This document shows positions 24,041 through 54,997 of a DNA stretch of 64,000 nucleotides, piece after piece (position 1 is the stretch's first letter; each line of letters starts with the position of its first letter). Under the pieces are notes generated by a model. The model was not told where the DNA came from and did not search any database. It saw only the letters and a list, made by a program, of their open reading frames with translations. Source of the stretch: Flavobacteriales bacterium (GTDB lineage Bacteria > Bacteroidota > Bacteroidia > UBA10329); assembly GCA_021739625.1 (NCBI GenBank), contig JAIPBJ010000007.1:1-64000 (forward strand), read 5' to 3'. Position numbers and translations under genes: made by a program.

Positions 24041-24375
24041 TCAGGGTTCCGCTGCCTTCACCACCCGTTGGAAGGAGGTGCGGCCTTGCAGGTCTGTCAC
24101 TTGCAGGAGGTAGATGCCCGTGGGGAGATGGCGCAGATCGAGGGTGTGCGATCGGCCCTGTGCATCTCGGCCATACACCTCTCTGCCAAGCATATCTGAG
24201 AGCCGCACGCTGCCAAGGTGCTGTTGGGCCTCTATGCGAATCATGTCGGTGGCGGGATTTGGGAAGACTGAAAAGCGCAAATCGCCATATTCTTCCGCAC
24301 CATCCTGTATGCTGTCCAAGGCGATGACGGAGACGTCATCCAGATAATAGTAAGACCTTGCTGCATGCATGGAGG
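24041..24375 (-). pseudogene. orphan C-terminal fragment of a T9SS-secreted protein
   Basis: ARSYYYLDDVSVIALDS...LRFSVFPNPATDMIRIEAQQ...LPTGIYLLQVTDLQGRTSFQRVV is a beta-sandwich end plus sorting domain; upstream residues are low-complexity with no signal peptide or catalytic domain. Confidence 0.6.
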
Positions 24376-24577
24376 CCAGGGTCGGCAAGTGGTGCATGGG
24401 GTCGGAGGGCGAAGGTGTTTGTGGGGGGCTTATAGCACTCTTGGTTCTCAGGATATTTTGATGGCAGGGATAGTTTTGTATCGAAAATGACGAGCTTGGA
24501 GCAACCTTACCTCTTGTATCTGAAAGGCGCATGGATACTGGGCCGTGGAAATCATTTGTCATACACCTTGCGCTGGA

Positions 24578-24604
24578 GGGGGGGGTGGAAGACCCCCCCC
24601 CCCC
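24578..24604. repeat. facing homopolymer runs G8...C12
   Basis: GGGGGGGG (24578-24585), TGGAAGA, CCCCCCCCCCCC (24593-24604). Confidence 0.85.
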
Positions 24605-24605
24605 G

Positions 24606-24815
24606 GGTCAAAAACCGCCCGCTCGCGGTTTTTTATCGGGAGCGGGCGGTTTTTCAGTGCGCGTTCGCGGTTTTTTATCGCGTGCTCCCGATTTTTTACC
24701 GCTCGCTCGCGGTCAGGAACCGCGCAGGGGGGGTCCGGAATCGCGAGCGGGCGGTCAGGAACCGCGAGCGCCCGATCTTTTACCGCGCGCTCGCGGTCAG
24801 AAACCGCCCGGTTTC
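24606..24815. repeat. tandem array of ten degenerate 21-bp units
   Basis: Units e.g. GGTTTTTTATCGGGAGCGGGC, GGTTTTTTATCGCGTGCTCCC, GGTCAGGAACCGCGAGCGCCC, GATCTTTTACCGCGCGCTCGC; constant 21-bp register over all ten. Confidence 0.92.
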
Positions 24816-24826
24816 AGGGCACGGGG

Positions 24827-25113
24827 ATCGGAGGAATGGTAGGATCCGGCTTTTCATCCGTGGGAGGCGGGGTATCCTCTGACTCGGACAGTTGAACGAA
24901 ACGCTCCTTCAGTCTGTTGTAGCGCTCATCGGCCCCGGGCATGCCCGCCTTGGCCGCAGCCTCCAGAATCTTGTAATAGATGAGGCACACCGAATATGCC
25001 TCTGCGCCTGCCAGAAACTGTGTGCCGAGCTGGGCATCACCGTGGCCGAACTCTACGACCTGCCGTTGAGCGAGCAGATGCTGAAGGTGCAGGGCCACTG
25101 CGGCCGCAAATAG
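24827..25113 (-). CDS. small hypothetical protein, possibly a fragment
   Basis: Reverse-strand frame reads AGAEAYSVCLIYYKILEAAAKAGMPGADERYNRLKERFVQLSE; N-terminus and start uncertain. Confidence 0.35.
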
Positions 25114-25235
25114 CCCCGGCCAAGGGTGCGGAAGGGCACACCGACCAGACACAGTGACAGTGCCCCATCGGTCTGCCCGCCTCGGCCATGCGTTCGCATC
25201 CGGACCGCTGTTGGACACCCCCGCCCGCCCGTTGC

Positions 25236-25243
25236 TACTTTTG
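25236..25243 (+). promoter_or_regulatory. -7 box TACTTTTG of tyrS
   Basis: Exact TAnnTTTG, 19 nt from ATG. Confidence 0.55.
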
Positions 25244-25262
25244 CCGCCCCAAAGCATCAGCC

Positions 25263-26558
25263 ATGGCCTTCGCCCCCCACCACGACCTTATTGAAGAACT
25301 GAAATGGCGCGGCCTGCTGCACGATGCCATGCCCGGCACGCAGGACCTGCTCAACCGCGAGATGGTTTCAGGCTATGTGGGCTTCGACCCCACGGCCGAA
25401 TCGCTCCACATCGGCAACCTTGTGCCCGTGATGCTGCTCACGCATCTTCAACTGGCAGGCCACAGGCCCATTGCCCTCGTGGGCGGGGCCACAGGCATGA
25501 TAGGTGACCCCAGCGGCAAGTCGGCCGAGCGCAACCTGCTCGATGAGGAGACCCTACAGCGCAACGTGGCAGGGGTAAGGAAGCAACTGCTCAAGTTCCT
25601 CAATTTCACAGATGGGGCCAACAGGGCCGAACTGGTCAACAACTACGACTGGTTCAAGGGCATCTCGTTCCTACAGTTCATGCGCGACATCGGCAAGCAC
25701 ATCACCGTGAGCTACATGATGGCCAAAGATTCTGTGCAGAACCGCTTGGAGACCGGCATCTCGTTCACCGAGTTCAGCTATCAGCTGGTGCAGGGCTACG
25801 ACTTTGTGCATCTGCTCAAGAACCATGGCTGCAAGCTCCAGATGGGCGGATCGGACCAGTGGGGCAACATCGTCACCGGCACCGAACTCATCCGCAGGAT
25901 GGGCGCAGGCGAGGGTTTTGCCCTTGTGGCACCCCTCATCACCAAGACCGATGGCGGCAAATTCGGCAAGAGCGAGCAGGGCAACGTGTGGCTCGACCCG
26001 CAGCGCACCTCGCCCTACCGCTTCTATCAGTTCTGGCTCAATGTGTCGGACGAGGACGCCAAGCGCTACATCCGCATCTTCTCGCTGCTCTCAAGGCCCG
26101 AGATCGAGTCGTTGCAACAGCAGCACGATGGGGCCCCCCACCTGCGCCTCCTGCAAAAGGCATTGGCCGAAGATGTGACCGTGCGCGTGCATTGCCGCGA
26201 GGATCTTGACGCGGCCGTGGCGGCATCCGAGATCCTCTTCGGGCAGGGCACGGAGGACAGTCTGCGTCAACTTTCCGAGTCCGACCTGCTGGCCGTGTTC
26301 GAGGGCGTGCCGCAGTTCCACATTTCAGAGCAGGAACTGAAAGCTGGCATCCCCATCATCGACCTGCTGGCCGAGATGACCACCGTGTTCCCGTCCAAGG
26401 CCGAGGCACGCAAGATGATCCAGGGAAACGGGGTCAGCATCAACAAGACCAAGGTGGCCGCCATCGACCTGATGGTCAACGTTGATCACCTCATCGCTGG
26501 GCGGTACATTCTCGCCCAGAAAGGGAAGAAGAACTACTACCTGCTGATTGTAGGGTGA
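25263..26558 (+). CDS. tyrS: tyrosyl-tRNA synthetase
   Basis: [37 protein letters not shown]-terminal S4-like domain. Confidence 0.96.
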
Positions 26559-42958: not shown

Positions 42959-43134
42959 TTCCGGAACCACATATAGTTGGCCGCTACGGCCTGGAGTTCG
43001 ATGTTGCGATGTTCCGTCATGTCATCGGTATTAAGGATCGATGTCCGGTCTGTCACCTTCACAACGGGAACATGACCGGATTATGCGCGGCAAATATGAT
43101 GATCATAGAGGAAAGGCCGGTCACCGCCCATGCC

Positions 43135-43418
43135 CCATGGCTTCTATACAGGGGAAACAGACTTCCGCATATACTCCATGGTTTCCATGGAGAGGAAATG
43201 GACTTCTGCGCATGACCTATGGCTTCCATATAGGAGAAACAGACTTCCGCATAAACCCCATGGCTTCCATACAAGGGAAGCAGACTTCCGCATATACTCC
43301 AAGGATTCCATAAAGGGGAAACAGACTTCTGTATATGCCCCATGGTTTCCATACAGGGGAAACGGACTTCCGCAGATGCTCCATGGCTTTCATAGAGGGG
43401 AAACGGATGTCTGAACAG
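43135..43418. repeat. tandem array of seven 41-bp units
   Basis: Consensus CCATGGCTTCCATACAGGGGAAACAGACTTCCGCATATACT; units start at 43135, 43176, 43217, 43258, 43299, 43340, 43381 (last truncated). Confidence 0.93.
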
Positions 43419-46598: not shown

Positions 46599-46633
46599 AA
46601 TCGCTATTCGTTAATCGCTAATCGTTATTCGTT
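46599..46633. repeat. heptamer repeat (5 units)
   Basis: AATCGCT|ATTCGTT|AATCGCT|AATCGTT|ATTCGTT, abutting the stop codon of the minus-strand flavin reductase. Confidence 0.75.
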
Positions 46634-47525
46634 ACTCCAAAGCAAGCAGCATCATCCACGCTTCTTTGATGCGGCCTTCGGCCAGCAGCATCTGGGCGTT
46701 CTGATGCAATTGTTTCTCCACTTCATGATGGTTCTTATGCTGCCATTTGATGAGTGCGGCCATCTTGGGGTCTGCCCGGAAAGCCTCCAGTTCTTCAAAG
46801 GTGGGCAACTGATGGATTCCGCCCAGCAGGCCAAGGTCGTTGCCCGACAGGATGGAACTTTCACGGATATGTTCGGGCATGGCATCCACCCCTATGCCGT
46901 GTTCGCGTCCCGGTTTCGCAATGCTGAAAATGGCATCGCCCGAAGCGCGGCAATACCAGTCACCGCCCATCCGCGCCACAAGGTCGAGGCGATGCGGGTC
47001 GATGCCTCCTTCTTCGGTCATCACATCCTCGCTGATGTGCATGCGCAGTATCTCGGCCACGATGAGGTTGCCCGCTCCGCCCTCATCGCCCAGTTTTATC
47101 ACCTCCCGCACCTTGCACTCGAATTGCACGGGCGATTCCATCACCCTGAAGGGCCGCACGAGGTCCGATGCAATGGGCGTGAGGCCCGCCTTCCCGAATT
47201 CGTTCACCCCTTCGGGATATTCCGTGCTGGCGAGGTTCATCTGCTGCACAAGGTCGTAATTCACCACATTGATGACCACTTCCTTCACCGCTTCCACGTT
47301 GTCGAGCGTGTGTTTGGTGGTGTTGCCGCGCACCCTCCGCGCTGGGCTGAAAATGGCAATGGGCGGATTGGAGCTGAACACGTTGAAGAAACTGAAGGGG
47401 GCCAGATTGGGCCGTCCTTCCGCATCAATGGTACTGGCAAATGCGATGGGCCGTGGGGCCACTGTGCTCAGCAGCAATCCGTGAAATGCGCCTGTCTCCA
47501 GGTCTTTGGGGTCAATGGAGCGCAT
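46632..47525 (-). CDS. flavin reductase-like (FMN-binding) protein
   Basis: STVAPRPIAFASTIDAEGRPNLAPFSFFNVFSSNPPIAIFSP. Confidence 0.9.
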   Translation of the reverse strand: MRSIDPKDLETGAFHGLLLSTVAPRPIAFASTIDAEGRPNLAPFSFFNVFSSNPPIAIFSPARRVRGNTTKHTLDNVEAVKEVVINVVNYDLVQQMNLASTEYPEGVNEFGKAGLTPIASDLVRPFRVMESPVQFECKVREVIKLGDEGGAGNLIVAEILRMHISEDVMTEEGGIDPHRLDLVARMGGDWYCRASGDAIFSIAKPGREHGIGVDAMPEHIRESSILSGNDLGLLGGIHQLPTFEELEAFRADPKMAALIKWQHKNHHEVEKQLHQNAQMLLAEGRIKEAWMMLLALE

Positions 47526-54745: not shown

Positions 54746-54997
54746 GGCGAAACACCTGTTCGGGACGGCCTTACGAAAAGGGGGACACGCCCCAAATGCG
54801 TTCGGGTACCATCCCGAAAAAGGGGGACACGCCCCGAACGCGTTCGGAGGCCACCCCGAAAACTCGGAGTACGTCCCAAATGCGTTCGGATACCACTCCG
54901 AAAACTCGGAGTACGTCCCAAATGCGTTCGGAGGCCACCCCGGAAACTCGGAGTACGTCCCAAACGCGTTCGGATACCATCCCGAAAATCCGGGTCG
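54746..54997. repeat. tandem array of 42-bp units (five clear, one diverged)
   Basis: Unit CGTCCCAAATGCGTTCGGATACCACTCCGAAAACTCGGAGTA; starts 54746 (diverged), 54788, 54830, 54872, 54914, 54956. Confidence 0.93.

Follow-up and report, generated by a model that had tools for sequence, protein, structure and literature searches.

The window analysed here, a stretch of 64,000 nucleotides, lies on contig C125 of a 3.69-Mb draft genome in 179 contigs (G000). Its central feature, array A, is a non-coding tandem array lying between a truncated gene and a probable gene remnant, the ORF with the sorting domain (Table 1). The truncated gene belongs to F1, a small unnamed protein family of about 160 aa. 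The minus-strand ORF 24814-25257 stops at the edge of array A, and its residues 79-134 align with positions 106-161 of 163 in a 28-member F1 model (E 3.4e-8). The remnant is 39% identical to an intact 185-aa F1 paralog of the same genome, which has its own, different 21-bp array behind the gene. The point of truncation coincides with the start, at about 25013, of a duplicated segment that comprises the 3' end of a small HTH gene (HTH_23/HTH_26 on contig C52) and the sequence following it, in front of tyrS. The locus of the C52 copy (L248:1505-1738) also carries 43-bp and 42-bp arrays. The neighbours of array A scanned with Pfam gave radical SAM/SPASM, the sorting domain and tyrS; near the tyrS gene of two other genomes of the same genus there is also a 21-bp array, of differing sequence.

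Table 1. Coordinates of array A, its neighbours and related features (positions refer to the window unless a locus is named).
Feature	Position	Strand	Basis or remark
Short ORF; sole recognised domain C-terminal Por_Secre_tail (secretion sorting)	24041-24562	-	Pfam, E 8.1e-12
G-run/C-run inverted repeat at far edge of array A	24575-24607	.	Sequence
Array A: ten 21-bp units with dyads	24606-24815	-	Directly 3' of F1 remnant on minus strand
Truncated F1 gene: C-terminal third, Pro-rich tail and stop codon (24814-24816)	24814-25023	-	hmmsearch
Duplicated segment	25013-25250	+	94% identity over 238 bp to contig C52 (blastn)
tyrS (tyrosyl-tRNA synthetase), next intact gene	25263-26558	+	Pfam tRNA-synt_1b, 1.1e-76
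Array B: 41-bp period (21+20)	43130-43404	.	Same class
Array C: 42-bp period	54787-54988	.	Same class; copies on C104, C65, C73
7/14-bp arrays	46599-46634; L031:3451-3580; L049:316-505; L194		Separate class
HTH_26 genes with 21n array on 5' side	L015:8368-8710; L019:11692-12065; L062:3946-4370		
Array near tyrS in G006 and G005	L239:1093-1209 (upstream, G006); L242:1200-1472 (downstream, G005)		

Array A consists of ten adjoining 21-bp units in exact register with zero indels. Shifted against itself by 21, 42 and 63 bp, it has identities of 0.63, 0.61 and 0.55, against about 0.15-0.40 (about 0.26) at other shifts. A segmentation unbiased towards 21 returned that value for 9 of 9 spacings, with 25% mismatch to the consensus, and Tandem Repeats Finder recovered the array too. 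The strict register claimed earlier from the letters alone, in a sequence-only reading of the window, is confirmed by these results. Every unit has a GC-rich block of 10 bp and many have, in addition, one of 11 bp of the type GGTNNNNNACC, which gives rise to recurring dyads along the array. The dyad score (0.57) lies above that of arrays with permuted unit columns (0.40 +/- 0.04; 0 of 60 controls reach it), and the RNA fold has z = -6.5 and -7.2 on the two strands relative to dinucleotide shuffles, which bears out the dyads proposed at the unit junctions. Dyads of this kind are expected for hairpins and for the sites of dimeric proteins alike. The G-run/C-run hairpin at the far edge may have an assembly-sensitive length; a comparable G/C hairpin stands before the weak array of L272.

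At the DNA level the closest relative of array A is a five-unit partial copy in the same genome (C104:21691-21810). No homolog was detected in 39 relatives, phages or plasmids, the viral contigs gave one match that is probably due to chance, and the best Rfam matches were far below gathering thresholds. What places the array is the gene beside it. The sequence-only reading had missed the truncated minus-strand F1 gene abutting array A, and this gene shows what the array belongs to.

F1 has no convincing match in Pfam, NCBIfam, PHROGs or PADLOC, and its best PDB match is weak (NEQ131, E 0.022). Thirteen members compared have few invariant residues, and most of them end in a tail that is rich in proline or polar. 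The window's own genome contains five members or remnants of F1, each with a 21n or near-21n array behind it. Among 39 relatives, a profile search detected F1 in members of the window's genus and of three further families, and a further search in another order gave eleven positive genomes, four of them single-contig. Counting the window and the remnant on C54 there are 32 F1 loci, not all independent, as some are sister-species orthologs. At 25 of them a non-coding array of about 21n begins no more than 100 bp past the F1 stop; the other seven have no array inside this distance. The loci with a nearby array come from the genus of the window and from several further Bacteroidia families, some lie on single-contig genomes, and the linked arrays have roughly 10-15 units of 21 bp.

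How often would such an array stand beside any gene? Within 100 bp of a gene, 21n arrays were found for 9 of 453 genes of the own genome (all called genes, the count taking in the window's own array; Fisher p = 3e-28), for 3 of 524 in a sample of the genus (7e-34) and for 1 of 655 in a sample of other families (2e-38). In phages, plasmids and viral contigs F1 turned up just once, as a distant gammaproteobacterial homolog that a plasmid of Candidatus Thiodictyon syntrophicum encodes without an array. Array A is one copy of a recurring Bacteroidota module made of an F1 gene and a non-coding 21-bp array: an F1 protein is encoded beside it by the truncated gene, and the non-coding 21n array abuts the F1 stop. 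The copy in the window is broken, since only the C-terminal third of F1 is left, while its array remains. Among F1 paralogs the array sequences differ from copy to copy and the spacing is kept.

The arrays linked to F1 are part of a larger class. In 575 kb of the same genome, autocorrelation picked out about 15 non-coding arrays, whose periods are 21, 22, 41, 42, 62 and 63 bp, and the self-identity of all non-coding bases (62 kb) peaks at 21, 42, 63 and 84 bp (0.27-0.29 against about 0.253), with no other notable peak. Several 42- and 63-bp arrays resolve into 21-bp monomers in register, and some 42-bp arrays seem recently expanded (0.98-1.0 identity). A single ancestral unit for all arrays was considered and rejected, for most pairs are unrelated and just small families exist, such as array A with its partial copy, or array C with its copies on three contigs. 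Related 63/62-bp arrays open two draft contigs (L018:1-596 and L076:1-267), which suggests that arrays of this class break the assembly.

Most 21n arrays of the genome lie away from F1, and a search for one neighbour gene common to all of them found none. They sit in spacers of every gene orientation, divergent and tandem included; array B, for example, lies upstream of an unnamed gene of 325 aa with a Pro-rich tail. All three HTH_26 (Cro/C1-type) genes examined, two in this genome and one in G011, adjoin a 21n array, and on these three loci HTH_26 is a possible second array-linked family. A wider search of the HTH family returned further homologs in the genus and in G011. The sequence-only reading had proposed to look for period-21 arrays in related genomes, and the relatives do contain them. 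The non-coding DNA of E. coli (150 kb) has no 21n arrays, and they are very scarce in a sample of 17 other Bacteroidia families, in which heptamer arrays are more frequent. Non-coding arrays of 7/14 bp, common in other Bacteroidia genomes, are a separate class.

If the sequence of the arrays differs so much from locus to locus, then we can ask: What is conserved between orthologs? Two pairs of orthologous arrays from sister species, A4 and A5, carry this evidence, array A having no counterpart in relatives. The A4 arrays differ by 37 changes in 265 columns and align gap-free; the A5 arrays differ by 36 changes in 328 columns with no internal gaps. Coding DNA identity for the same two pairs is 0.86 and 0.89, level with the arrays, and in both pairs the quality of the alignment drops past the array end. 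Orthologous units are far more alike than units inside one array. Conservation at the coding level and essentially without indels, together with the 21-bp arrays in relatives, upholds the earlier suggestion of a constraint on spacing.

The period itself was analysed in a pooled sample of 31 F1 loci, over 320 bp after the stop. Lag identity is 0.409, 0.388, 0.368, 0.354 and 0.351 at 21, 42, 63, 84 and 105 bp against about 0.26, and there is a half-turn excess of 0.020 at 10-11, 31-32, 52-53 and 73-74 bp (t = 3.4, p = 0.002). The flanks (5' and far 3') lack the half-turn excess, and their 21n excess is about a tenth the size. These peaks support the idea, raised before, of units phased at two turns of the helix. 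Changes between orthologs follow a 21-bp phase in A4 (p = 0.0005) and a 10.5-bp phase in A6 (p = 0.003), and show no phasing in A5; as seven phase periods were tried per alignment, the phased changes are moderate evidence. The 21-bp period, the half-turn peaks and the phased changes together fit B-DNA.

We therefore weighed a DNA element against other explanations. The array might act as RNA: as a string of hairpins, forming a structured 3' UTR of the F1 transcript or a small RNA of its own, it would stabilise the message, be bound by the F1 protein or act in trans. Its position just 3' of the F1 stop suits this reading, as do the strong fold of array A and the paired ortholog changes, some of which are compensatory or keep a G-U pair. 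In 15 of 27 F1 arrays the sense fold beats column-permuted controls; however, the antisense signal is nearly equal (12 of 27), and since many arrays fold no better than these controls, RNA folding is not their common property. Besides, a period of 21.0 bp with sub-peaks at 10.5 bp is closer to B-DNA than to RNA with its 11 bp per turn, and arrays of the class are also found in the spacers of divergent genes and on the 5' side of HTH genes. An RNA function is the chief rival, though a less probable one than the DNA element. A stack of intrinsic or bidirectional transcription terminators is improbable. To the eye, the first dyad of array A (AAAAACCGC..GCGGTTTTTT), an A-tract, a GC stem and a T-tract, resembles a bidirectional terminator, T-runs end the units in the left half of the array, and the array abuts a 3' end, but a terminator scan called 0 sites in array A, where 1.3 were expected in shuffles. 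The T-runs after dyads are chiefly on the strand opposite the F1 remnant, many sister arrays have neither T-tracts nor hairpins, and arrays also occupy divergent and tandem spacers. From the functions listed by the sequence-only reading, a protein-binding array or a structured RNA can be retained, whereas the terminator stack finds no support as a general function.

A neutral minisatellite, functionless and produced by slippage or recombination with an inherent preference for 21 bp, would account for the period common to arrays of unrelated sequence and for the recent-looking expansion of some 42-bp arrays; bacterial minisatellites are common. Yet conservation of ortholog arrays like coding DNA and free of indels, while the adjacent non-coding sequence is not so conserved, counts against a neutral, homogenised satellite. 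The units are conserved individually and without homogenisation, and the linkage to one gene family has a p of about 1e-28, so we consider this origin highly improbable. It is scarcely credible, finally, that array A encodes a heptad-repeat peptide in a plus-strand frame. Three plus frames are indeed open across it, as was reported before, but their openness is incidental: in many sister arrays most or all frames are interrupted by stops, and the coding sequence that can be recognised beside array A is on the minus strand. The tested plus frame has no Pfam match, and class members of 41, 43 and 22 bp disrupt any frame. For the class as a whole, the stops in sister arrays and the frame-breaking periods rule coding out.

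The explanation we favour, with a probability of roughly 45%, is that the array is a helically phased double-stranded DNA element, linked to F1 and putatively bound by protein. With units spaced two helical turns apart, like features would face the same side of the helix, which would let a protein bind cooperatively along the array. Such binding would give a phased nucleoprotein filament resembling iteron or centromere arrays, and the candidate binder would be F1 or a neighbouring HTH protein. That spacing and face are kept while the paralog sequence drifts suggests a locus-specific matching of protein and array. With a little more reserve we propose that F1 and its array may form a new bacterial nucleoprotein (or ribonucleoprotein) system, in which spacing and units would be under selection and the recognised sequence would be re-invented at each locus, each protein matching its own array.

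The plasmid centromeres ParR/parC and TubR/tubC are tandem units of about 20 bp or about 10 bp, phased with the helix and, in known cases, bound cooperatively on one face. Like them, the phased DNA element proposed here has tandem units beside the gene of a small protein. In contrast to them, the F1 loci are on chromosomal contigs, the array is 3' of the gene, the unit sequence is locus-specific, and searches of Pfam, NCBIfam, PHROGs, PADLOC and PDB gave F1 no detectable kinship to known DNA-binding families. An actin- or tubulin-like partner, or a filament-forming NTPase, is absent among the Pfam-scanned neighbours of array A. REP sequences with RAYT transposases are small palindromic intergenic units associated with a gene, and their sequence is common across the genome. 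The units described here are likewise small, palindromic, intergenic and gene-associated (compare the REP survey, PMC3733652). In contrast to REP, the present arrays have just the period in common, and F1 gave no match to a transposase family, RAYT (Y1/HUH) included, in Pfam, NCBIfam and PHROGs.

The closest published repeats are the BrickBuilt and PgRS minisatellites of P. gingivalis, direct repeats of 22, 23 and 41 nt, of which the 23- and 41-nt repeats belong to MITE-like elements that have terminal inverted repeats of IS5 type and one common unit sequence (PMC4596501). They share with the present arrays the phylum Bacteroidota, the intergenic position and units of about 21 and 41 bp. In contrast to these minisatellites, our arrays go with a protein family and vary in sequence from locus to locus; dispersed copies with one unit sequence were not found, array A having a single partial relative, on C104. 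Beggiatoaceae carry arrays of the heptamer TAACTGA, 7-bp units of a single sequence (PMC4679880), and Borg elements carry intergenic repeats of near-perfect units that vary in length (PMC9879509). These, too, are abundant intergenic tandem repeats with a putative regulatory role, but the parts consulted report neither a 21-bp rule nor a linked gene family. The open-access literature yielded no account of a 21-bp array tied to a gene in this way.

Across several Bacteroidia families a protein family with no entry in the searched libraries is tied to a non-coding array defined by helix pitch and not by sequence. F1 and its array are a concrete two-part system that is amenable to experiment. The module could also account for some of the intergenic repeats of 20-22 and 41 bp that have long been noted in Bacteroidota.
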